A DNA stretch of 64,000 nucleotides from Paenibacillus oralis (GTDB lineage: Bacteria > Bacillota > Bacilli > Paenibacillales > Paenibacillaceae), in the NCBI RefSeq assembly GCF_003863965.1, contig NZ_RRCN01000001.1:855042-919041 (forward strand), in the 5' to 3' direction. Position numbers and translations under genes: made by a program. Below are positions 17,440 to 27,923 of this stretch, piece by piece. Numbering within the stretch: the first letter of the stretch is position 1; every line of letters begins with the position of its first letter. The notes beneath the pieces were generated by a model that searched no databases, had not been told where the DNA came from, and worked only from the letters and a program-made list of their open reading frames with translations.

Positions 17440-17628
17440 TTCCCATAACCTCCATAAAAACGCAAGAAAACCAACTTAAAAGCAGGTCGAGCATGGCTTT
17501 ACAGCGCTGGAACGCGGGGCTTGAAGCCGCTATTCGGGAACTTGAACGTACTGAAACTTTGCGTGGAAGGAAACTACAGATCACTCCCACCACACTGCGA
17601 TACAAGGAAAAGGGGAAATCCCACGAAA

Positions 17629-17805
17629 TGCAAAAGTGCAGGCGATTTTTGTCGAAACTCCTCTAAACCGGTGGTTCAAATGTAAAAGTGCAGTTCATTT
17701 CCGGCCACAAGCTGCTTTTTTATCGGATAGCCTCAAAAGAGATGCACTTTTGCATTTCAATCGCTCTATAGTGACAATTTACGGAATATAGAATGCACTT
17801 TTGCA
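17629..17805. repeat. Four-site mirrored intergenic array, TGCAAAAGTGCA family (A1)
   Basis: TGCAAAAGTGCA at 17629 and TGTAAAAGTGCA at 17681 are direct. TGCACTTTTGCA at 17743 and 17794 are inverted. Spacings are 52, 73 (inner start to end) and 51, and the full length is 177. The array at 49946-50122 has the same spacings and also matches between the sites. Confidence 0.8.
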
Positions 17806-17920
17806 GTTGATCCCATCGGGCCATCCTTCTTCCCATGACAATTCTAAATTTTAAAAACACACGCCGTTCCGATGCCCCCCTGTTCCTGGGTTGCTATAAT
17901 CGAATCGGCGTAGTCAAAAA

Positions 17921-18418
17921 TCAAGCCAGTTTAATGGTGAGTACGGGATCTATACCGACGGCCGCTTCTCCTTCATGTGCGTGAACTTCAAGCACGGCAT
18001 CAATTCCTTCAGGAACGATGAGCGGCGTTATAACCGGAAAGCCGGCTTCAACAATCCGGGCGATATCAAACTCCAACAGCAATTGTCCCGCCTTGATCCG
18101 GTCTCCGGTCTCTACCCGGGGCGTGAAGCCCTCCCCTTTTAGCGAAACGGTATCGACGCCGATGTGAATCAGGAGTTGAGCGCCGGATTCATGTTCAAGG
18201 ATCACGGCGTGTTTGGATTTGATCAGTTGCGCGACAACTCCATCAAACGGAGCATACACTTTTCCTTCGGCCGGCTCAATCGCAACTCCCTCGCCCATCA
18301 TCCGCTCGGCAAATGCCGGGTCGGGCACACGATCAAGCGGTACAGCCAGCCCGTTGACCGGCGCGGTTATTACCAAATCCCCAGCTTGTTTTTTGCTTTT
18401 TTTGGTCCAAGGCAACAT
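17921..18418 (-). CDS. PTS sugar-specific IIA component, glucose family
   Basis: A 165-residue phosphocarrier that passes phosphate from HPr to the IIB domain of a sugar permease. The fold and active site are of the glucose IIA type. HAVILEHESG supplies the supporting His, and LLIHIGVDTV supplies the phosphorylated His. The ATG at 18418 (MLPWTKK) has GGAGG nine bases upstream. The IICB permease at 20947-22500 has no IIA domain, so this is its likely partner. The gene has its own promoter and a RAT antiterminator plus terminator leader, matching the leader of the permease, so both should be induced together. Confidence 0.92.
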   Translation of the reverse strand: MLPWTKKSKKQAGDLVITAPVNGLAVPLDRVPDPAFAERMMGEGVAIEPAEGKVYAPFDGVVAQLIKSKHAVILEHESGAQLLIHIGVDTVSLKGEGFTPRVETGDRIKAGQLLLEFDIARIVEAGFPVITPLIVPEGIDAVLEVHAHEGEAAVGIDPVLTIKLA

Positions 18419-18452
18419 AGTCCCCATCCTCCATTTTTATAAAATCAAAAAT

Positions 18453-18505
18453 AAAAAAGCCCAAAACGAAATAAAGAGGACCGCTCTTTATCACTCGTTT
18501 TGGGC
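18453..18505 (-). terminator. Leader terminator of the IIA gene
   Basis: On the minus strand GCCCAAAACGA pairs with TCGTTTTGGGC, with an inner TAAAGAG/CTCTTTA stem, followed by TTTTTT. It lies 35 bases before the IIA start. Its first arm overlaps the RAT, so the two structures exclude each other. Confidence 0.9.
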
Positions 18506-18531
18506 ATTGCCTGCTCACAGTAACAAACCCC
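18498..18531 (-). promoter_or_regulatory. RAT (ribonucleic antiterminator) for a BglG/LicT protein, copy 2
   Basis: On the minus strand GGGGTTTGTTACTGTGAGCA continues into GGCAATGCCCAAAAC. This fits the RAT pattern of GlcT/LicT/SacY targets (GG.TTGTTACTG...GCAGGCAA.ACC). When the antiterminator binds, the overlapping terminator cannot form. Confidence 0.88.
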
Positions 18532-18548
18532 GATATTTTAGAGGTTGC

Positions 18549-18585
18549 TCAAAAAGTCATCTTTTCTGAAAAACCGGCTTTTTGA
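18549..18585. repeat. Short inverted repeat, ends of the MITE-like family
   Basis: TCAAAAAGTCATCTTTT and AAAACCGGCTTTTTGA are the same ends seen at 12868-13053 and 30961-31122, but with no interior. It may be an internally deleted copy. It sits in the transcribed leader of the IIA gene, before the RAT. Confidence 0.5.
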
Positions 18586-18609
18586 ACTCGCACTTTTATT
18601 GGCAAACTT

Positions 18610-18638
18610 ATCTTACTTGAATGGTTTTTTCTTGTCAA
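18610..18638 (-). promoter_or_regulatory. Sigma-A promoter of the IIA gene
   Basis: On the minus strand TTGACA and TAAGAT are separated by exactly 17 bases. The site lies after the FGE stop, so IIA is transcribed separately. Confidence 0.8.
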
Positions 18639-18679
18639 ACCGCAAGCTAGATTCCCGAAAAAAGAACCCCGGTTAACCG

Positions 18680-19666
18680 TCAAGCATCGGCGGCGCAGCG
18701 GAATCCGGCATTTCCGGACGAGCTGTCGGGCGAGTTCCGGCTTCGTGCCGCAACCCGATACCGATTGCAATAAGAGTGGTGGCACAGATACGAACCGCCC
18801 CGCATGGATTTCACATTTCCCTTGGACGGACCTTTCGGATTTACGTTGTCTTGGGTCCGGTGGTAACGCACGTCGAACCAATCCCCGCACCATTCCCAGA
18901 CATTCCCCGCCATATTGTACAGACCGTAGCCGTTAGGCTCGAACGCATTTACCGGAGCGGTCCCCGCGTATCCGTCCAACGCCTCGTTCTGAACGGGAAA
19001 TTTCCCCTGCCAGATATTGCACATATGCTTGCCTTCGGGGGTGAGTTCATCTCCCCACGGAAATTTTTTCTGCACCAGCCCGCCGCGTGCGGCATATTCC
19101 CACTCGGCTTCCGTCGGCAGCCGTTTGCCGGCCCAACGGCAGTATGCCTCCGCATCGTGCCAAGAGACATGGACCACGGGGTGATCCATCCTTCCTTGAA
19201 GCCCGGAATCAGCCCCTTCGGGATGCTGCCAGTCGGCCCCCTCGATCAGCCGCCACCACGGCGTTTGCATGACAACATTCGTCGTATCGGCCAGCACATC
19301 CGGCGGCAGAAACAGATGAAATACAAACGAGTTGCCGAATTTCTCGGCATCGGTACGGTAGCCTGTAGCCCGGACAAACTCAGAAAACTGCCGGTTGGTT
19401 ACCGCGTAGGAATCTATATAAAACGGGGACACCGTCACTTCCCTTACCGGTCCTTCGCCATCCGTAGGAAAGCCTTCTTTGTCGTCCGTGCCCATCAAAA
19501 ACGTCCCGCCCTCCAAGCGGATCATGTTGCTTTGCACTCCCGCCGCTTTAGGGCGCCCGCTGTTCGCTGAAAATGCCGCGGCTCCACTGCCCAGCCGGAC
19601 AGCAGCCGGTTTTGAACGTTTCGGGGAACAGCAAGAAGGTGTAGCCTTGTTATGATCTTGATCCAC
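18680..19666 (-). CDS. Formylglycine-generating enzyme (sulfatase-activating)
   Basis: A 328-residue FGE/SUMF1-type enzyme. It oxidises the Cys of the sulfatase motif CxPSR to formylglycine using copper and oxygen. The C-terminal block GGSYLCHHSYCNRYRVAARS, followed by NSPDSSSGNAGFRC, carries both active-site cysteines and matches the true FGE pattern. Many FGE-fold proteins lack these residues. The body shows HPVVHVSWHDAEAYCRWAG and LPTEAEWEYAARGG. There is no signal peptide, so it acts in the cytoplasm. The start is GTG with GGAGAGGTAGGA upstream. It is transcribed away from the antiterminator gene. Its obvious client is the sulfatase at 22520-23872, whose motif is CSPSR. Confidence 0.95.
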   Translation of the reverse strand: MDQDHNKATPSCCSPKRSKPAAVRLGSGAAAFSANSGRPKAAGVQSNMIRLEGGTFLMGTDDKEGFPTDGEGPVREVTVSPFYIDSYAVTNRQFSEFVRATGYRTDAEKFGNSFVFHLFLPPDVLADTTNVVMQTPWWRLIEGADWQHPEGADSGLQGRMDHPVVHVSWHDAEAYCRWAGKRLPTEAEWEYAARGGLVQKKFPWGDELTPEGKHMCNIWQGKFPVQNEALDGYAGTAPVNAFEPNGYGLYNMAGNVWEWCGDWFDVRYHRTQDNVNPKGPSKGNVKSMRGGSYLCHHSYCNRYRVAARSRNSPDSSSGNAGFRCAADA

Positions 19667-19872
19667 GTCCTACCTCTCCTTTCTACGCTGATAAAGCTAA
19701 TCTGCGCTGGTAAAGCTAATGTTATTATATCAGCTTAAATCCATTTTGAAAGAAACTTAAATAAATTATTTTCTGGCAACCGGGTTGATTTTTGGGGAAA
19801 TCCGAGATTATAGTATACCTAATTCCGTTTTGGCGGCATGAACTAACTGTTCTCCGGGAATATTAGCTTTAA

Positions 19873-19900
19873 TTGACGCCTGGACATGGTTGTTTATACC
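19873..19900 (+). promoter_or_regulatory. Candidate promoter of the antiterminator gene
   Basis: TTGACG and TATACC are 16 bases apart, about 30 bases before the start. No RAT or terminator lies between, so the regulator itself should be made without inducer. Confidence 0.5.
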
Positions 19901-19930
19901 AAAACGAACTAAAGACTAGGAGCAAGATTC

Positions 19931-20758
19931 ATGAAAATCAGCCGTGTTCTGAACAATAACGCCGTTGTTGTAAAAGAAGGGGACAGCGAGAAAATAATTA
20001 TGGGGGCGGGAATCGCGTTTCAGAAAGGAAAAAACGATGTCATCGATCAGAGCAAGATCGAGAAGACCTTCGTTTTGAAGGAGGAGGGCCACAAGTTCCA
20101 GGAGCTTCTCAGCACCGTTCCCGAAGCTCATATTGCCGCGGGGGAGGATATTATTTCCTACGCGGAACAGCAGCTTGGCATGAAATTGAGCGACCACATT
20201 CATATTTCCTTAACCGATCACCTGACCTTTGCCATCGAGCGTTTAAACCAGGGCATCGAAGTCCGGAACAAGCTGATGAACGAAATCCGCATTCTTTACC
20301 GCGAAGAATTTAAGATCGGGCAATGGGCGCTCCGCTATGTGCAGGAGAAGCTGGGGATCACGTTTCCCGAGGATGAAGCGGCTTTTATCGCCCTGCATAT
20401 CCATACCGCCAAAATGGGGGACGCCCATATCGAAGACTCCATCAAAAAAGCGCTGATTCTGCAGGATGCCAGCGATTTTATGCTTAAGGATCTGGGCGTA
20501 AGCATCAGCAGCGACAGCATTTCCTATCATCGCCTGCTGACGCACCTGGAATACGCCATCCACCGCTTTTACGAGAATAAACCGTTTCATACGCTGGACG
20601 ACGACATGCTGAAAGTCATTAAGAAAAAATATAAAAAAGGCTACAAAACCGCGCAAAATGCCGCATCTTTTCTTCACCAAAAATACGGCGTTGCTTTTCC
20701 GGAATCGGAAATGGCGTATATTGCGCTGCATCTGCAGCGCATCCTAGAAAATATTTAA
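19931..20758 (+). CDS. BglG/LicT-family transcription antiterminator
   Basis: A 275-residue RNA-binding regulator. The first 55 residues (MKISRVLNNNAVVVKEGDSE...) are the co-antiterminator RNA-binding domain. Two PRD domains follow, with conserved histidines in LTDHLTFAIERL and ALHIHTAKMG (PRD1) and in YHRLLTHLEYAIHRF and MAYIALHLQRI (PRD2). In this family the PTS phosphorylates PRD histidines: the cognate permease inhibits and HPr activates. The protein then binds RAT RNA as a dimer. Two RATs lie next to it, one before the permease-sulfatase operon and one before the IIA gene, so it should control both. Confidence 0.94.
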   Translation: MKISRVLNNNAVVVKEGDSEKIIMGAGIAFQKGKNDVIDQSKIEKTFVLKEEGHKFQELLSTVPEAHIAAGEDIISYAEQQLGMKLSDHIHISLTDHLTFAIERLNQGIEVRNKLMNEIRILYREEFKIGQWALRYVQEKLGITFPEDEAAFIALHIHTAKMGDAHIEDSIKKALILQDASDFMLKDLGVSISSDSISYHRLLTHLEYAIHRFYENKPFHTLDDDMLKVIKKKYKKGYKTAQNAASFLHQKYGVAFPESEMAYIALHLQRILENI

Positions 20759-20761
20759 GGC

Positions 20762-20790
20762 TTGACGAAAAAATTTTAACCGTCTACAAT
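20762..20790 (+). promoter_or_regulatory. Sigma-A promoter of the permease-sulfatase operon
   Basis: TTGACG and TACAAT are separated by exactly 17 bases, directly after the antiterminator stop. Confidence 0.85.
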
Positions 20791-20817
20791 GTAACCGTAT
20801 CCAAGAAATTTCATATC

Positions 20818-20853
20818 GGGGATTGTTACTGGAAAGCAGGCAAGACCTAAAAT
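20818..20853 (+). promoter_or_regulatory. RAT (ribonucleic antiterminator), copy 1
   Basis: GGGATTGTTACTGGAAAGCA continues into GGCAAGACCTAAAATG, an almost perfect LicT/SacY-type RAT. Its 3' part is also the first arm of the terminator that follows. Confidence 0.93.
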
Positions 20854-20904
20854 GTTTAAGAGCGCTTAAAGCCTTTTTGCTCTTGAACGTTTTAGGTCTT
20901 TTTG
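20842..20904 (+). terminator. Leader terminator of the permease-sulfatase operon
   Basis: AAGACCTAAAA pairs with TTTTAGGTCTT, extended by AAGAGC/GCTCTT, and TTTTTG follows. It is about 40 bases before the permease start and overlaps the RAT. Confidence 0.93.
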
Positions 20905-20946
20905 TTTTCCCGGAATCACTCACAACTTAGAAAAGAGGGGATCATT

Positions 20947-22500
20947 ATGCTTAAAAGCTTGTTCAGCAAATTCCAGGTCTTCGGCAAAGCGATCATGCTG
21001 CCGATCGCCGTACTCCCTGCCGCCGGGCTGCTGCTGGGGATCGGGGGAGCCTTCACCAACCCCAACACGCTAGGCAACTATCCGTTTCTTGACCAGCCGT
21101 GGCTGCAGGCTATCTTCACCATTATGAGCTTTGCGGGGCAAATTATTTTCAGCAACCTGCCGATTATTTTCGCCATCGGGATCGCCGTCGGACTGGCGAA
21201 GTCGGACAAAGGCGTAGCCGGGCTCGCCGCGTTGCTGGCTTATCTGGTGATGAATGCGTCGATTAACGCGCTTCTGGTCGTTACCGGGAAGCTGGCCAAA
21301 GAAAAGCTGGCCGACGTAGGCCAAGGGATGATTCTGGGGATTCAAACGCTGCAAACGGGCGTATTCGGCGGCGTCATCGTTGGCCTCTTGACCTACTATC
21401 TGCATAAAAAGTTCGGCAAAGTCAAACTGCCGCAATGGCTTGGTTTTTTCAGCGGCTCCCGCTTTATTCCGATCATTTGTTCCTTCTCGGCCGTACTGCT
21501 GGGGATGGTCATGTTTGTCGTCTGGCCGCCGGTGCAATCCGGGATTGCCAGCTTGGGCGGCATCGTCGACCGCACGGGTTATTTCGGCTCCTTTATGTTC
21601 GGATTCATTGTAAAATTGCTGGGACCGCTCGGACTTCACCATATTTTCTATCTCCCGTTCTGGCAAACGGCGCTCGGCGGAAGCATGGTCGTCAACGGGG
21701 TTGAGGTGCAGGGAGCGCAAAATATATTTTTCGCCCAGCTTGCGGACCATAATACCCAACAGTACTTTGTCGGCGTCTCCCGCTTCATGAGCGGAAAATA
21801 TTTCCCGATGATGTTCGGTCTGCTTGGAGCCGCACTGGCCATGTATCATACCGCCAAGCCGGAAAACAAGAAAAAAGTGCTTGGCCTCCTGCTTACCGGG
21901 GCGATCACTTCCTTCCTGACGGGGATCACCGAGCCGCTGGAATTCGCCTTTTTGTTCGTGGCGCCCTTGCTTTTTGTGATTCACGCCGCGCTATGGGGAG
22001 TCGCCTATATGCTGGCTCACATCCTTAACATCACGGTCGGCATGACGTTCTCCGCCGGGCTGATCGACTTTACGCTGTTCGGCATCCTGCAGGGCAACGA
22101 CAAAACGAACTGGATTCTTGTGCCGCTTGTGGGAATTGGCTTTTTTATCGTTTATTATTTCACGTTCCGTATTTTGATCACGAAGCTCAACCTGAAAACC
22201 CCAGGCAGAGAAGATGAAGACATTTCCGGCAGTGAATCTGCCGCAGCCGGTTCGTCCGGAAATGCCGATCAACAGACAGTAGCGATCCTGTCGGCGCTGG
22301 GGGGCAAAGCCAATATTGAAGATTTGGACTGCTGCGCAACACGGCTTCGCGTTACGGTCCGGGATGAAAGCCAAGTATCCAAGGAAGAGCTGCAAAAGAC
22401 CGGTTCCAAAGGCGTCATTGTAAAAGGCAAAGGGGTGCAAATTATTTACGGCCCGCATGTCGCCCTGATTAAAACGGAGCTGGAAGAAATGCTCCAATGA
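20947..22500 (+). CDS. PTS permease IICB, glucose/N-acetylglucosamine class
   Basis: A 517-residue membrane permease. Residues 1 to about 425 form the IIC channel with about ten membrane segments (IMLPIAVLPAAGLLLGIGGA; LGLHHIFYLPFW; GITEPLEFAFLFVAPLLF). After a Gly/Ser-rich linker, the IIB domain carries the phospho-Cys in DLDCCATRLRVTV. There is no IIA domain, which matches the separate IIA gene. The ATG (MLKSLFSK) has GAGGGG upstream. Proteins of this class phosphorylate hexoses or hexosamines, usually at O6. It starts a RAT-controlled operon with the sulfatase 19 bases downstream, so the natural substrate is probably a sulfated sugar with a free C6 hydroxyl. Confidence 0.93.
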   Translation: MLKSLFSKFQVFGKAIMLPIAVLPAAGLLLGIGGAFTNPNTLGNYPFLDQPWLQAIFTIMSFAGQIIFSNLPIIFAIGIAVGLAKSDKGVAGLAALLAYLVMNASINALLVVTGKLAKEKLADVGQGMILGIQTLQTGVFGGVIVGLLTYYLHKKFGKVKLPQWLGFFSGSRFIPIICSFSAVLLGMVMFVVWPPVQSGIASLGGIVDRTGYFGSFMFGFIVKLLGPLGLHHIFYLPFWQTALGGSMVVNGVEVQGAQNIFFAQLADHNTQQYFVGVSRFMSGKYFPMMFGLLGAALAMYHTAKPENKKKVLGLLLTGAITSFLTGITEPLEFAFLFVAPLLFVIHAALWGVAYMLAHILNITVGMTFSAGLIDFTLFGILQGNDKTNWILVPLVGIGFFIVYYFTFRILITKLNLKTPGREDEDISGSESAAAGSSGNADQQTVAILSALGGKANIEDLDCCATRLRVTVRDESQVSKEELQKTGSKGVIVKGKGVQIIYGPHVALIKTELEEMLQ

Positions 22501-22519
22501 TAAAGGAGATGTCACCGCA

Positions 22520-23872
22520 ATGAATCAACCGAACATTATCTTCATGATCTCTCACGACACGGGACGATACCTTAGCTGCTACGGCCATCAAGTGCCGACC
22601 CCGGAGCTTGACGAGTTGGCCGAAAAGGGGATCCGCTTCGACCAGTATTACTGTCCGGCTCCCCAATGCAGCCCCAGCCGGGGCAGCATCCTAACCGGCA
22701 AATATCCGCACAATAATGGTCTGATCGGGCTGGCCCACTTAAATTTTCATATCCACGAGGACGAGTCTACTTTGCCGATGGAATTGAAAAAAGCCGGTTA
22801 TGAAACCGCGCTGATCGGCTTCAGCCACGAAACGATCGGCGAAACCGAAAAGGGCATATACAGTTCAACCCACAAGCTGGGGTATGACAGATATATGGGA
22901 GTCGAAGGCTCCAGAGCCCCAGGCGTAGCGGATGCGGCGATCGAATATTTACGGGAAAAGGCCGCGGCGGTCGAGGAAGGCCGCCCGTTCTTCGCCAATA
23001 TCGGCTTTTGGGAGACGCACCGCTCTTTTGACGAATACGATAACATCAAAGACGACGCAGACAACGTGCAGGTGCCTGCTTATTTGCCGGACACCGAAAA
23101 TATCCGTCGCGATTTTGCCCAATTTCATGGGTCCGTCAAAGTGCTTGACGAAGCCGTAGGCCGGATCAAGGCCGCGCTGAAAGAGACGGGGCTGTTAGAG
23201 AATACGCTGATTATTTACACCACGGATCATGGCATCGCTTTTCCGCGTGCGAAAGGAACGATGAAGGACGCCGGACTGGAGACGGCCCTGATCATGTACG
23301 GGCCCAAGTGGATTCAAGGAAACGGACGGGTCATCGCTGAGCTTCTATGCAATATCGACATGCTGCCGACGCTGCTTGAGCTGGCGGGAGCGCCGATTCC
23401 CGAAAATATCGACGGCATCAGCTTCACCCCCTTGCTGCGAGGCGATGATGCGCCGACCCGGGAGGAATTTTTCTGCGAGCTGACCTGGCATGACAAGTAC
23501 CACCCGATGCGCGGCATCCGTACGGCCCGATTCAAATACGTCAAGAATTTTATAGACGGTCCGAAAATTTACATGCCCGTAGATATTCATCGCAGTATTT
23601 CCGGTCCGGACGTGCGGGAGCAGTTTTATGTCGCCAACGAACCGGAGGAGCTTTACGACCTGGAGAAGGACCCGCTGGAATATACGAATCTGATCCACGA
23701 TCCCGGCTACGCGGAGGTGGCCGAAGAACTGCGCCGCAAAGTGGCGAATTGGATGTCGTCCACGGACGATCCGATTTTAAAAGGTCCGGTAGCCGGAACC
23801 GAATCGGCCAAATGGGCCGAGGAAGCCCTCCACGGCAGAGTTTACGTACCTCGGAATGGCGGAAACAAATAA
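22520..23872 (+). CDS. Cytoplasmic Cys-type sulfatase, N-sulfoglucosamine sulfohydrolase-like
   Basis: A 450-residue type I sulfatase that hydrolyses a sulfate ester or sulfamate. The motif CSPSRGSILTG holds the Cys that FGE turns into formylglycine. TDHGIAFPRAKGTM supplies metal and active-site residues. The order of motifs (CSPSR-x-S-LTG, later IAFPRAKG) resembles human SGSH-type N-sulfatases more than arylsulfatases; I infer this from memory. The usual N-terminal Asp-Asp metal pair reads His-Asp (MISHDTGRYLSCYG). No signal peptide is present, so the enzyme works inside the cell on what the PTS imports, probably a sugar phosphate. It is the last gene of the RAT-controlled operon. Confidence 0.9.
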   Translation: MNQPNIIFMISHDTGRYLSCYGHQVPTPELDELAEKGIRFDQYYCPAPQCSPSRGSILTGKYPHNNGLIGLAHLNFHIHEDESTLPMELKKAGYETALIGFSHETIGETEKGIYSSTHKLGYDRYMGVEGSRAPGVADAAIEYLREKAAAVEEGRPFFANIGFWETHRSFDEYDNIKDDADNVQVPAYLPDTENIRRDFAQFHGSVKVLDEAVGRIKAALKETGLLENTLIIYTTDHGIAFPRAKGTMKDAGLETALIMYGPKWIQGNGRVIAELLCNIDMLPTLLELAGAPIPENIDGISFTPLLRGDDAPTREEFFCELTWHDKYHPMRGIRTARFKYVKNFIDGPKIYMPVDIHRSISGPDVREQFYVANEPEELYDLEKDPLEYTNLIHDPGYAEVAEELRRKVANWMSSTDDPILKGPVAGTESAKWAEEALHGRVYVPRNGGNK

Positions 23873-23883
23873 TATGGATGCAA

Positions 23884-23924
23884 ACAAGGAGTGCTCGGGA
23901 ATTAACCCGCCCACTCCTTGTTTA
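23884..23924 (+). terminator. Intrinsic terminator after the sulfatase gene
   Basis: AAACAAGGAGTG and CACTCCTTGTTT form a perfect 12-base stem. The T tail is short. Confidence 0.7.
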
Positions 23925-23958
23925 GGTTCTGCGCGGTGGCCTCGATCAGCCCCGTTTG

Positions 23959-24495
23959 TCACACGCTTAACTCTTTTTTTAGTAAAGAGTAGTGGTATTG
24001 ATCGCAAACTGTACCGTCACTAAACCAGTAATGCTCCCTATATGCGCCCTCGAATTTGAAGTTGAAACGCTCCAATAGCTTGATCGAAGGTTTATTGTAA
24101 GCTGCAGTTGTGGCATAGATTTTATTCAAATTTAAATATTGATCATGGAACACTTCTTTCAAGAATAGATGAACCAAGCGGCGTCCCACTCCCTTGCCCC
24201 TATGCAAAGTCGGAACATAGTAACCAAATTCCGCACTGCGATTCCTCGGATTATAATCAAAAAGGCTTATTTTGCCGACAACCTCATTTTCCTCAACATC
24301 AATCATAATGTAATGGAGTTTTCCGTGGTTTAGTCCGGAAGTCACCTTCTCTCTATATGCCTCGTAACTATCCATTTCTCTGATCGGACGGCAAGTATGG
24401 TACTCTTTTTCAGTCTCGTCGGCAGCCCACTGAAAAATCACAGGCAGATAGGTAGGCGCGTTGGCCTCGGTTAACTTTAATAGTTTAAACGTCAT
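23959..24495 (-). CDS. GNAT-family N-acetyltransferase
   Basis: A 178-residue acetyltransferase with the acetyl-CoA loop LHRGKGVGRRLVHLFL at about 98-113 and the later motif AAYNKPSIKLLERFNFKFEG. The full-length alignment with the family (RimJ/RimL-like layout) is good. The acceptor is unknown; it may be a protein N-terminus, an antibiotic or a small amine. It is a single gene that converges on the sulfatase operon. The adjacent 360-base gap (24496-24855) holds only a small palindrome near 24765. Confidence 0.88.
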   Translation of the reverse strand: MTFKLLKLTEANAPTYLPVIFQWAADETEKEYHTCRPIREMDSYEAYREKVTSGLNHGKLHYIMIDVEENEVVGKISLFDYNPRNRSAEFGYYVPTLHRGKGVGRRLVHLFLKEVFHDQYLNLNKIYATTAAYNKPSIKLLERFNFKFEGAYREHYWFSDGTVCDQYHYSLLKKELSV

Positions 24496-24764
24496 TTTCT
24501 AGCACGTCCTTGTTCTCCCCTTGAAATTGAAGCATGTCGCCCTTGAAGTCCTTTTTTGTTCCTCATTCGGATGACCAGGCATTTGTTTTTCAACAACCCC
24601 ACGCCAGCCCCGGTTCACATGTTTTCCTTAGTAGGTATTAGACATTTGATTCCGAAATCCTCTAGTGCCAAGCTGTACGGTTCATTGGAGTTCAATTTTT
24701 GCGGATTCCCCATCCCTGTTGCCTGAACATGGAAATAACGTTAAACTATATTTGAATAGGTCGT

Positions 24765-24820
24765 GAAGCACGCGCCGTTTCGATGTATCTGCCCTGTCCC
24801 GGGTTGATGTATCGAGGCGG
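24765..24820. repeat. Palindromic segment, copy b
   Basis: CGCCGTTTCGATGTATC is mirrored by GATGTATCGAGGCGG around CTGCCCTGTCCCGGGTT. A similar palindrome (CGCCGTTCCGAT ... ATCGAATCGGCG around CCTGTTCCTGGGTT) lies at 17861-17913. Confidence 0.45.
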
Positions 24821-24855
24821 TGTTTTTACTAGTTGATAAGGGAGTTGAAATTTGG

Positions 24856-25499
24856 ATGCGGTTTGAGCAAGCTTTTGAGGAATGGATGCGGCTTAATATT
24901 GCCGAAGAGAAAAATCATAGACGGATCGAAATACTTGAGCATGGTTTGGGGCACGGAACAATGGAATTTTTACGTCGGGTCTGGTTTCCTGCGGTGGGGA
25001 ATTTCGATCATCTGTATCCGGAATCGGAGGTGCGGGATTTCAATAACGGCTATCGTTATTTGGATCTGGCGTATATGCCGGACACGGCAAAAGGAGGCAT
25101 TGAAATTCAAGGATACGGCCCCCATGCAAGGGATCTCGACGTAAGACGCTTTAAAGACTTATGCTGGCGCCACAGTCTGTTGGCACTTGATGGCTGGACT
25201 TTTTTGCCGATTGCGTACTTGTCGATTATGGACGAACCCAAACAATGCCAACAGTTAGTGCTCTCGTTTATCGAAAATTTGTTGCTGTCGATGTACAATC
25301 GGAGCTAAATTGGTTGGAGGCGGAATCGGTTCGGTTCGCACGCCGTATGTTGCGGCCCTTTACGCCCAACGAGTTGTCGGAACATCTCCAAATATCGGTT
25401 CGTCAAACCAGACGCATTTTGTTGGAACTGGTCGATAAGCAAATTTTGTTTGTAGCCGGTGGAAATGTCCGCTATCGTACGTATCAACTTAAGTGGTGA
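24856..25499 (+). pseudogene. Nuclease-fold (DUF559-like) protein with C-terminal winged helix, frameshifted
   Basis: The first frame (24856-25308) encodes the nuclease-like part. YRYLDLAYMPDT...GIEIQGYGPH and LALDGWTFLPI align with the intact paralogue at 34923-35588. The second frame (about 25281-25499, at -1) encodes the winged-helix C-terminus (FTPNELSEHLQISVRQTRRILLEL). A -1 shift joins them into a 214-residue protein, close to the paralogue's 221. The shift zone holds A AAT TTG in the zero frame at 25275-25281, a slippery heptamer of the X XXY YYZ type. This may be programmed frameshifting, or simply a one-base mutation or sequencing error. In the Glu-x-Asp position of the paralogue this copy reads EIQ, so a metal ligand may be lost. 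Confidence 0.65.
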
Positions 25500-25803: not shown

Positions 25804-25821
25804 GGGACTGCAAGTAGGTGT

Positions 25822-25908
25822 GATGATTAGTGTGTTAATTAGTGTGTTAATTAGTGTGTTAATTAGTGTGTTGATGAGTACGTTGATGAGTGTGTTGATA
25901 AGTTGTTG
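25822..25908. repeat. Tandem repeat, 12 bp, about seven copies
   Basis: TTAATTAGTGTG repeats in register, then drifts to TTGATGAGTACG, TTGATGAGTGTG and TTGATAAGTTG. It continues the 45-bp array. Confidence 0.8.
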
Positions 25909-26003
25909 ACTAGTGCGAAACCTATGTACTCCTAGCATTCAACTAGCGTACAGTTAAGCATGTGGTAGACGTGAGGCAAAGTGTGCCTTTAACGGACGTC
26001 TCC

Positions 26004-26186
26004 TAACGGACTGGAAAGACCTTATTTGTAATTTCCCGCGTCATTTCCCAGTCTAAAGGACTGGAGAGACCTTATTGACCAACAAACGCGGAATTTAGCA
26101 TCAGTTTGAGTGGAATAAGTGCATCTCAGTCCGTTAGGGCAAAAAAACAGGTGATTTCAGTCAAATAAGGGCTGCTGTGTCCGTTA
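26004..26186. repeat. Four-site mirrored intergenic array, TAACGGAC family (C1)
   Basis: TAACGGACTGGAAAGACCTT at 26004 and a close variant at 26054 are direct. Two inverted copies (AATAAG...GTCCGTTAGG) end at 26136 and 26186. Spacings are 50, 82 and 50 and the total is 183, identical to the array at 59033-59215. Confidence 0.85.
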
Positions 26187-26202
26187 GGGCAGACGATCCA
26201 AA

Positions 26203-26239
26203 AATAACCGCCTGGATGACGGTCATCCAGGCGGTTATT
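26203..26239 (-). terminator. Intrinsic terminator downstream of minJ
   Basis: A perfect 18-base stem (AATAACCGCCTGGATGAC and its complement) with a one-base gap, followed on the minus strand by TTTTT. It lies 260 bases past the minJ stop, beyond the duplicated GC-rich segment. Confidence 0.75.
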
Positions 26240-26372
26240 CTGCAATACAACGCTCGCAGAGAAAAGCACGCATTCGCGGAAAAGCCCGTGGACGCTGGTT
26301 GTCTGCCACTTTGGCTGTGCTCCGCGACCGCAACATATACAGCGCGGGAGTGCGCGTCGCGGTGGCGGCATC

Positions 26373-26690
26373 GCCCGCGAAGCCGGCGCAGCCGCCCCAG
26401 GGCCGGGCCCGCCCGCTTCCCCCGGGCCCGCTCCCCCCGCGGTGGCGGCGCTCCCGCCCCCGCCGCCGCTCACACGAGCGCCCCGCACCGCGCGGGCGCT
26501 ACACCTCGGCGGGCGGGCCGTCCGCCGCCGAGCCGCCCTGCCGCTGCGCCGCCCGCGAAGCCGGCGCAGCGGCCCCAGGGCCGGGCCCGCCCGCTTCCGC
26601 CGGGCCCGCTCCCCCCGCGGCGGCGGCGCTCCCGCCACCGCCGCCGCTCGCACGAGCGCCCCGCACCGCACGGGCGCTCCGCCGCGGGCG
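26373..26690. repeat. GC-rich tandem duplication, 178 bp period
   Basis: The segment starting GCCCGCGAAGCCGGCGCAG at 26373 recurs at 26551, and both copies continue through matching Gly/Pro/Ala-coding GC-rich sequence. The composition is far above the rest of the window. The second copy encodes the end of the minJ frame. The first lies past its stop. Because 178 is not a multiple of three, the copies are read in different frames. Confidence 0.8.
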
Positions 26691-27923
26691 CACAAGCTGC
26701 AGCAGCGATAGCGGCTGCAGCCGCACCGCCGCCGGCGCCAGCTCGTCCGGCGCCAAAATCGCGCCGAGCTGGTGATGATCGCCGGCGTAAATCGCCCGCT
26801 GGAGGAATTTGCTCTCGCCCGCGAGATTCCGCACCTCCAGCTTGCAATAAGCCGGGTTGATCCGCAGCGCCGCGTGCAGATCTTCCTTGGTCGGCACCGG
26901 CGTACCGTTTACTTTGACGATCGTTTCGCCGGCCCGGATGCCAAGCTCGTCCGCCGGGCTCCCCGGCAGCACCGCGAGCACCCTCACCCCGCCCTGCGGG
27001 TTCACGAACAGCGGGCTGCGCTGCTGCTCCTCATAGCGGCTGTACCAGACGAGCCCTTCGTGCAGCAGAAACGCCGCCAGCGCCGCCAGCAGCATCAGCG
27101 GGCTCCACCACGCGGCGGCCAGCGCCAGCACCAGCACCACCGCGCCGTACGCCAGCAGGCGCCCGGACGACACGCGGGCCTTGTCCTTCGGCAGCAGGCC
27201 CATCGTCATTTCCGAGAAACCGATGATAATCGGAAGTCCGATCATCCCAAAACCGCCCTGCCAGGCGTCACCGCCAAAAAACGGCGTCCACGGCAGCACA
27301 TTTCCCGTCGTCTCCATCGGGACCAGCAAAAACAGCGGCACCGCCCACAGGCTTTGCATTTGGTAACCGCCGACCAGCTTGCCCCGCTTGCCTTCATAAA
27401 ACAGCGGACCGGCAAACGAAGCCCCCTGCCAGCGGACAAGCAGCCCTTCCGCAATATGCAGCAGCCCGACCAGGCACAACAGCGCCGGAATATTCAGTTC
27501 CCTCACGATACGCACGATTTCGGCGGCCCATCCCGTCCCGGCAAAGCCCGGAAACAGGTTCAGGCCAAACTGCACGATCCCCAGCAGCCCCACCGAGTAG
27601 GCAAGGCATAAATACCGGACACGCAGCAGCAGCAGCACGATCGTAACGGCCCAGATGCAGACGATGCCTTCCAGCGTCAGATCCATTCCGAGGAAGGCAA
27701 ATAGGACGGATACCGCAATGCCCGCCAACAGACCGGCGATAACGGTACGCCACGTTTGAGCGCCCCAGCTATGCAGACGCGCATGAAACAACTTGCGCTC
27801 CAGCAGCACCTGCCGGCGATAAAGCAGCGCGATCATGATGATGGAAATATAGTAAAAAGGCTGCAAAAACAACTGCGCTACCGTTTCCGCCAAACTCCAC
27901 AATCCTTCAAGAATAAGATCCAA
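26499..27923 (-). CDS. minJ: MinJ-like PDZ membrane protein (division-site topology factor)
   Basis: A membrane protein of about 474 residues with six to eight membrane segments in the first 310 residues, then a PDZ domain (about 320-400: VLAVLPGSPADELGIRAGETIVKVNG). B. subtilis MinJ has the same layout, bridges DivIVA and MinCD, and lies in the same order next to ctpB. The preferred start is TTG at 27923 (LDLILEGLWSL), with AAGGAG 12 bases upstream. After about residue 420 the protein ends in a low-complexity Arg/Gly/Ala/Pro tail (ASGGGGGSAAAAGGAG) that has no place in the family and is encoded by the GC-rich tandem duplication. The original C-terminus may have been displaced. Confidence 0.75.
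   Translation of the reverse strand: MDLILEGLWSLAETVAQLFLQPFYYISIIMIALLYRRQVLLERKLFHARLHSWGAQTWRTVIAGLLAGIAVSVLFAFLGMDLTLEGIVCIWAVTIVLLLLRVRYLCLAYSVGLLGIVQFGLNLFPGFAGTGWAAEIVRIVRELNIPALLCLVGLLHIAEGLLVRWQGASFAGPLFYEGKRGKLVGGYQMQSLWAVPLFLLVPMETTGNVLPWTPFFGGDAWQGGFGMIGLPIIIGFSEMTMGLLPKDKARVSSGRLLAYGAVVLVLALAAAWWSPLMLLAALAAFLLHEGLVWYSRYEEQQRSPLFVNPQGGVRVLAVLPGSPADELGIRAGETIVKVNGTPVPTKEDLHAALRINPAYCKLEVRNLAGESKFLQRAIYAGDHHQLGAILAPDELAPAAVRLQPLSLLQLVRPRRSARAVRGARASGGGGGSAAAAGGAGPAEAGGPGPGAAAPASRAAQRQGGSAADGPPAEV

Follow-up and report, generated by a model that had tools for sequence, protein, structure and literature searches.

Can a sulfated sugar be taken up by the bacterial phosphotransferase system (PTS), phosphorylated on the way in and desulfated only afterwards, inside the cell? 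This question is raised by a five-gene locus in a 64,000-nucleotide stretch of Paenibacillus oralis DNA (contig NZ_RRCN01000001.1, positions 855,042 to 919,041; hereafter the window), which encodes a PTS EIIA, a formylglycine-generating enzyme (FGE), an antiterminator, a PTS EIICB and a Cys-type sulfatase. Described carbohydrate sulfatase systems are mostly extracytoplasmic. The initial annotation of this DNA proposed that PTS import is coupled here to an FGE-matured cytoplasmic sulfatase, with N-sulfoglucosamine (GlcNS) as the substrate. Sequence comparisons indicated that the coupling of an intracellular sulfatase to the PTS is well supported, and we think it rather likely that the locus is a PTS regulon induced by its substrate, a small C2-sulfated sugar of the glucose type which would be desulfated in the cytoplasm. 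The locus appears real and conserved, it is probably self-regulated, and the mechanism proposed below is plausible.

Pfam profiles recognized all five proteins, as the initial annotation had named them. Flanked by MotA/MotB-like genes on one side and a GNAT gene on the other, the genes are arranged divergently: the minus strand encodes EIIA and FGE, the plus strand the other three (open reading frames, ORFs, come from a simple calling script). The active-site letters announced for the sulfatase and FGE are present: the sulfatase carries C50-S-P-S-R54 (C50 codon at 22667-22669) as well as Lys245 and Lys249, and the FGE-sulfatase domain has both cysteines, C295 and C300, in GGSYLCHHSYC. Likewise, the glucose-family permease is complete, with EIIC, an EIIB carrying Cys463 in CCATRLR and an EIIA carrying His88 in HIGVDTV; C50, C295/C300, Cys463 and His88 are presumably the catalytic residues. 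The sulfatase and FGE, both previously described as having no signal peptide, showed no hydrophobic N-terminus, the maximal 15-residue Kyte-Doolittle mean within the first 60 residues, by which N-termini were judged in place of a signal-peptide program, being 0.62 and 0.87, respectively; the sulfatase domain begins at residue 4. The gap between the EIICB and sulfatase genes is indeed 19 bases and contains the ribosome site AAAGGAG. The EIICB start is probably the ATG at 20947, behind AGAGGGG, rather than the TTG at 20902.

The set of EIIA, antiterminator, EIICB and sulfatase genes was found in seven genomes of five genera, the window included, and its recurrence in other genera argues that the locus is more than a chance assembly. 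The other carriers are a genome of the same genus (G012, locus L032), Paenibacillus sp. JJ-223 (L001), Virgibacillus halotolerans (L002), Gracilibacillus dipsosauri (L003) and two genomes of one more genus (L103, L104), taken as Niallia from identity to named proteins, as was locus L102. L033, L052 and L067 were taken as duplicates of L001, L003 and L002 because their contigs are of equal length. The EIICBs of the seven loci are 73-98% identical. FGE is encoded within the locus in five of the seven; the remaining two genomes have it at another place. A TauE/SafE gene (PF01925) occurs in L002 and L003.

The phylogenetic tree of 51 sulfatases (50 in an earlier run) revealed five context groups, each of which a single branch separates from the rest: PTS-linked (9), Paenibacillaceae linked to ATP-binding cassette (ABC) importers (8), halophile ABC with GH65 (11), haloarchaeal (5) and clostridial multi-sulfatase (2). 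In the PTS-linked clade (branch support 100/99), which also holds eleven rows without known context, P0050, P0058 and P0072 among them (P0050 and P0072 carry names of clostridial or gut MAGs), all nine context-known sulfatases stand directly behind a PTS permease; the sister clades adjoin ABC importers, and the ABC-linked groups are separate from the PTS clade. Kept across genera in this way, the association supports the coupling initially proposed. Three kinds of permease occur in the clade, namely that of the window (7), a glucose-type EIICB 42% identical (L102) and a trehalose-specific EIIBC (L064; 619.8, cut-off 591.95). Since the sulfatase lineage kept PTS import while the permease kind changed, we argue that the phosphorylated sugar is the substrate. 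Context was labelled by BLASTP comparison with a chosen set of reference proteins and by reading N-terminal letters, selected proteins being checked by profile; for L034-L041 the label ABC comes from letters judged by eye and one scanned substrate-binding protein. Locus L042, with no importer seen, was labelled as none in the 50-row tree, where the ABC group takes 2 changes, and left ungrouped in the 51-row tree, where it takes 1. L008, L043, L074 and L075 were left out of the trees as partial or duplicate, and P0013 and P0020 were replaced by L102-L104 in the 51-row tree. Close to the haloarchaeal plasmid relatives L009, L010 and L012 there are NDP-sugar synthase and glycosyltransferase genes, with an ADP-dependent glucokinase gene also in L009 and L010.

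An FGE relative is encoded in all nine genomes with a sulfatase of the PTS-linked clade. At E 1e-40, FGE was present in 9/15 and 6/6 genomes of the two sets scanned; it was rejected as a universal partner, there being no match at this level in G174, G227, G209 and G052 (ABC type) or in the clostridial G785 and G1067, where an anaerobic sulfatase maturase scored above its cut-off. CSPSR sulfatases without a close FGE at the same level are those of L036, L037 and L038 (G174, G227 and G209) and L034 (G052). Clostridial relatives at L058:7010-14980 and L059:2043-11185 lie in multi-sulfatase clusters that also encode such an anaerobic maturase (TIGR03942, 487 and 485; cut-off 349).

A new addition to the initial picture is that EIIA and EIICB-sulfatase are each preceded by a ribonucleic antiterminator (RAT) overlapping a terminator (Table 1). 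The Rfam family bglG-cis-reg (RF03530) matched the RAT of EIICB with 31.5 bits (E 0.011) and that of EIIA with 29.9 bits (E 0.027), against a gathering score of 80, and these were the only two Rfam matches at E<=1 within 17500-25000 (7.5 kb). RATs stand ahead of EIIA and EIICB in all seven loci with the gene set; the loose pattern used in the scan also matched four non-RAT places (L001:11641, L002:15100, L011 and L012), and no match was obtained in L102 or L064. The number of promoter-like sites was 8, little more than the mean of 5.5 (sd 2.1) in shuffles, and the two best (10/12) precede the two RATs, while sites of the 9/12 type were about equally numerous in shuffles. The antiterminator, which scored 276.1 of 300 with the LicT model and 241.4 of 320 with the GlcT model, joins a CAT domain to PRDs, so that with the RATs overlapping terminators the parts of a BglG/LicT system are all found in the window. 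A role in sulfur starvation was rejected, since PTS-type RATs fit carbon induction better. A LysR-family gene, which touches the sulfur-starvation question, lies near the locus in L002, L003 and L064.

On this basis the following course of events can be proposed. EIIA and EIICB would import the sugar and phosphorylate it, presumably at C6, while the flow of PTS phosphate would signal the presence of substrate to the PRD antiterminator, which would bind the RATs before EIIA and EIICB-sulfatase and allow transcription to pass the terminators. Cytoplasmic FGE would convert Cys50 of the sulfatase to formylglycine, and the sulfatase would then strip the C2 sulfate from the 6-phosphorylated sugar, yielding sulfate and a hexose-6-phosphate, that is, glucose-6-phosphate from an O2 sulfate or glucosamine-6-phosphate from an N2 sulfate. 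In this scheme we infer the order of the steps, phosphorylation before desulfation, the C2 position, and glucose over glucosamine.

The sulfatase is nearest to family S1_8, to which it may be assigned by nearness only. In the PDB profile search S1_8A scored 208.8 bits, the sulfamidase SGSH 180.2 and next an S1_11 enzyme 178.4; S1_8A was first in both PDB searches, at least 30 bits above every non-S1_8 protein. Fold searches (Foldseek, VIA) placed sulfamidase in the top rows, the nearest by fold being sulfamidase, S1_8C, S1_25 and S1_8A. The formylglycine sulfatase fold, the C-x-P-S-R motif and the SGSH_C-type C-terminus were all found, and the closest characterised relative belongs to S1_8. 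Members of this family are described as removing C2 sulfates, from galactose-2-sulfate, xylose-2-sulfate and GlcNS (PMC12549532), and because of this C2 is our best guess for the position of the sulfate. S1_8B is reported to accept galactose that also carries a 6-sulfate (PMC12549532), and the family therefore does not exclude an anionic group at C6.

Alignment of the active sites indicated where the enzyme departs from sulfamidase. Arg282 of SGSH is described as the N-sulfatase residue and Lys at this position as the O-sulfatase state (PMC4014121); here the position is Lys245, and it is Lys in 33/33 rows of alignment A1, while the haloarchaeal L013, in the wider set of 51 sulfatases, has Met. 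The likeness to N-sulfoglucosamine sulfohydrolases noted initially is thus upheld in so far as, among solved proteins, S1_8A and human sulfamidase are the nearest by sequence and fold, but not at Arg282. Of the SGSH residues Lys123 and His125, which bind formylglycine, the first is replaced by Phe101 and the second is kept as His103; an equivalent of Lys123 is absent from S1_8A too and the change is therefore neutral within S1_8. The metal site reads DH instead of DN, like that of the sugar sulfatase S1_8A. Four residues after the sulfate-binding Lys245, Lys249 was found in 20/20 rows of the PTS clade versus 2/24 of the ABC clades (L004 and L006); it was the one basic residue given by a post hoc scan of all columns for PTS-clade markers. 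It is possible, and we propose it tentatively, that a distinct cytoplasmic clade of 6-phospho-sugar 2-sulfatases evolved with PTS import in Bacilli and recognises the phosphate added by the permease, with Lys249 as a candidate contact; uptake and desulfation would then make up a single coupled pathway for 2-sulfated glucose, glucosamine or trehalose.

The permease bears on the identity of the sugar. Within the glucose/N-acetylglucosamine (GlcNAc) class to which it was first assigned, the scores lean towards glucose, whose model TIGR02002 was the best match of the window EIICB, just below its cut-off (569.3 of 591.8), ahead of the GlcNAc model (TIGR01998, 442 of 553.2). TIGR02002 was the best match of the EIICBs of all seven loci, and over cut-off in L003, L103 and L104, while TIGR01998 fell short in 7/7. 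The best PDB match of the window EIICB is the glucose-specific EIICB (362 bits), and the trehalose model TIGR01992 matched it by the EIIB part only (36.6 bits). In the halophile ABC clade, GH65-family genes occur in 11/11 loci and a beta-phosphoglucomutase-like gene in 8/11 (that of L006 shown only as HAD hydrolase); in comparison with solved structures the GH65 proteins matched kojibiose, maltose and other phosphorylases alike. The TIGR02002 scores, these sister-clade genes and the L064 trehalose permease lead us to favour a C2-sulfated glucose unit over GlcNS, though by a narrow margin. Some candidate evidence was set aside: treA-type GH13 genes were non-discriminating, NF008183 being over cut-off in 11/12 genomes, and treC with a trehalose/sucrose PTS beside an ABC-type locus (L036, L038, L041 and L043) was counted as weak, being confined to a single genus and ABC import yielding no trehalose-6-phosphate. 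TIGR02403 was over cut-off in 7/9 genomes, the exceptions being G000 and G012. The EIICBs at L002:5122-6984, L003:5146-6969, L103:9323-11218 and L104:9350-11191 have some 100 additional residues at the N-terminus that form a IIB-like domain, absent from the window; its Cys is kept in L103 and L104 and lost in L002 and L003.

Several observations weigh against the reading of the locus as a regulon for a C2-sulfated glucose-type sugar. The identity of the sulfatase to solved S1_8 members is 23-30%; S1_8B and S1_8C stood below several other families in the PDB profile search, S1_8B was 49th by VIA Z (34.5) with S1_25 among the first six at 39.7, and SGSH was less than 2 bits above an S1_11 enzyme by profile and below one in the single-sequence search. 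An S1_8 heparan sulfamidase of P. heparinus is reported to be inhibited by 6-O-sulfate (PMC10154612), and tolerance of a 6-phosphate is therefore not a given. The Lys249 pattern may be a single inherited change, and the nine PTS rows include near kin (window and L032, L103 and L104). The next relatives of the EIICB adjoin nanE, which points to a C2-amino sugar. The sulfatase is also rare: counting the genome of the window, it was found in 2/40 genomes of the genus and 13/394 of the family. Of these 13 loci, 3 have the PTS set and 8 an ABC importer; one showed no importer and one lies on a cut contig. In the sets for class and phylum, each including the same genome, it was found in 5/398 and 3/398.

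The glucose-type sugar has to be set against a glucosamine, a disaccharide and the absence of any common substrate. The initial proposal, that GlcNS enters as GlcNS-6-phosphate and loses its N-sulfate to give GlcN-6-phosphate, was not established and appears rather unlikely: all 33 aligned relatives have Lys in place of Arg282, which is the O-sulfatase state (PMC4014121), all seven EIICBs fell below the cut-off of the GlcNAc permease model, many of the relatives have trehalose/alpha-glucoside neighbours, and nagA, nagB, heparin lyase and GH88 were not recognised by eye, no profile scan being made, among the ORFs listed for the loci. The inhibition of the heparan S1_8 enzyme by 6-sulfate (PMC10154612) argues in the same direction. 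A glucosamine is nevertheless indicated by the nanE-paired EIICB relatives, by the heparinase II/III gene near the haloarchaeal L013 and by the glucosamine phenotype reported for SP1684, a pneumococcal EIICB beside nanE (PMC3302838) that may belong to the nanE-paired group.

Trehalose neighbours raise another explanation, unlikely in our judgement, in which 2-sulfotrehalose, an osmolyte of haloalkaliphilic archaea, or mycobacterial trehalose-2-sulfate would enter the cell as a phosphate and lose its sulfate there to give trehalose-6-phosphate. The L064 sulfatase begins 180 bases after the trehalose-specific EIIBC, in a genome with another trehalose permease beside treC. The GH65-family and beta-phosphoglucomutase-like genes of the halophile ABC clade and the halophile hosts point the same way, but the type of GH65 is ambiguous. 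The best plasmid and phage matches to the sulfatase (47% and 38%) are distant relatives only, and haloarchaea account for every one of the ten best plasmid rows (43-47%), including Natrialba magadii, in which 2-sulfotrehalose has been detected (PMC3403918, PMC1224877). Against this, the window permease is not of the trehalose type, a TreC-like gene was not found at the locus in the window or in G012, nor by BLASTP in L001, L002, L003, L103 and L104, and the genome of the window has no trehalose permease (best 379 of 591.95, elsewhere) or TreC (734 of 799) over cut-off, a TreC score below cut-off being no proof of absence since a gene of L036 with 705 bits adjoins a trehalose/sucrose-type permease. 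It is very unlikely, finally, that sulfatase and PTS have only their operon in common and not a substrate, the one desulfating another ester or hydrolysing a phospho-ester and the other taking up an ordinary sugar. S1 relatives do include phosphonate and phosphodiester hydrolases, and the DH metal site is that of such an enzyme (PMC4014121), but DH is also the site of S1_8A, and the single PTS-linked clade of nine with three permease kinds, the ABC importers or sugar enzymes adjoining the sister clades, the FGE in five of seven loci and the PTS-type antiterminator control all argue for a common substrate. The C2-sulfated glucose-type sugar is the reading that we favour, and the features of the locus are given in Table 1.

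Table 1. Genes and control elements of the PTS-sulfatase locus in the window
Feature	Position	Strand	Evidence
EIIA, stand-alone, glucose family	17921..18427	-	PF00358 159.3 bits; TIGR00830 141.7, cut-off 97.5
RAT antiterminator overlapping terminator, before EIIA	18433..18546 (RAT core 18497-18529)	-	motif and fold script scan
Promoter-like TTGACA-17-TAAGAT, just upstream of EIIA RAT	18610..18638	-	10/12 consensus bases
FGE	18680..19666	-	PF03781 299.4 bits; no hydrophobic N-terminus
Weak promoter-like site upstream of antiterminator gene	19785..19814	+	9/12 consensus bases
BglG/LicT/GlcT-family antiterminator	19931..20758	+	CAT_RBD (PF03123) and PRDs (PF00874)
Promoter-like TTGACG-17-TACAAT, just upstream of EIICB RAT	20762..20790	+	10/12 consensus bases
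RAT antiterminator overlapping terminator, before EIICB	20808..20919 (RAT core 20820-20849)	+	motif and fold script scan
EIICB, glucose family	20947..22500 (mechanical ORF from 20902)	+	PF02378 PTS_EIIC and PF00367 PTS_EIIB
Cys-type sulfatase near S1_8	22520..23872	+	PF00884 Sulfatase and PF16347 SGSH_C

Downstream of the locus, two overlapping ORFs at 24820-25499 (+) match halves (82% and 59%) of a 216-residue ORF at L065:2925-3575, and the gene, of unknown family, looks frame-broken in the window. A 12-base tandem repeat (8.2 copies) lies at 25818-25915, and a GC-rich stretch at 26126-26860 encodes the Ala/Gly/Arg-rich tail of a PDZ-domain ORF that is also present in G012 (92.8% over 486 aa). 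In G. dipsosauri a second, different sulfatase of 592 aa with C-x-P-S-R, followed by a beta-glucoside-type PTS IIBCA (TIGR01995 744.4, cut-off 614.7), was found at L003:10569-14378 (also in L052), at a distance of some 2 kb from the PTS-sulfatase locus already named for this genome.

If the proposed reading is true, the enzyme would be a phosphosugar sulfatase and would add a new class to the substrates of S1 enzymes, and it would help to give a function to the sulfatase-PTS pairing noted in 2012 without a substrate. It would also offer a possible means of breaking down C2-sulfated glucose units, for example those of the archaeal osmolyte 2-sulfotrehalose, for which no sulfatase turned up in a search of open-licence papers.

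Comparison with known systems places the locus among several partial likenesses. Two heparan sulfatase systems are described as periplasmic (PMC10154612), as is the carrageenan cascade of the Pseudoalteromonas S1_8 enzymes. Among solved proteins the closest in sequence is Pseudoalteromonas S1_8A, described as monosaccharide-specific, which shares with the window sulfatase Lys at the Arg282 position and the DH metal site; S1_8A/B/C remove C2 sulfate, but they have signal peptides, act on galactose 2-sulfate and are not PTS-linked (PMC12549532). SGSH (4mhx/4miv) has the closest fold, the same Pfam C-terminal domain and C-x-P-S-R, but it is lysosomal, acts on heparan ends and has Arg282 and Lys123 in place of Lys245 and Phe101 (PMC4014121). 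The nanE-paired EIICBs on plasmids of E. coli, Pantoea, Priestia, Leclercia and Citrobacter are 61-65% identical to that of the window, but they stand with nanE and a MurR/RpiR regulator and had no adjoining sulfatase in the five regions opened. BglG/LicT/GlcT systems likewise combine a CAT and PRD protein with a RAT/terminator before PTS genes, whereas here the controlled unit includes a sulfatase, and the Rfam score of the window is under the curated threshold. A haloarchaeal glycosaminoglycan route has been proposed to import (sulfated) disaccharides by PTS or ABC systems, but desulfation is placed earlier there, by analogy, and the sugar is chondroitin, not C2-sulfated glucose (PMC13260240).

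In the open-licence literature searched, no system was closer than the pneumococcal island SPH1922-SPH1930, published in 2012, which comprises a lactose-type PTS, a sulfatase, a modifying factor and TauE (PMC3283741, PMC3302838). Uptake of a sulfated sugar, removal and export were proposed in one of these reports (PMC3302838); deletion mutants were made and sulfatase activity was not detected, and a substrate was found in neither report (PMC3302838, PMC3283741). The initial statement that no pathway of exactly this form is described accordingly needs softening. The island resembles the window in its gene content of PTS, sulfatase and sulfatase-modifying factor, and L002 and L003 in its TauE-type exporter, but its PTS is of the lactose family, with separate IIA, IIB and two IIC, and its regulator is of the ROK/MarR type and not a RAT antiterminator; the window EIICB, of the glucose family, does not belong to that PTS type. 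PTS import, phosphorylation and intracellular desulfation have been suggested before for bacteria, and the window differs from the earlier case in its PTS type and its regulator.

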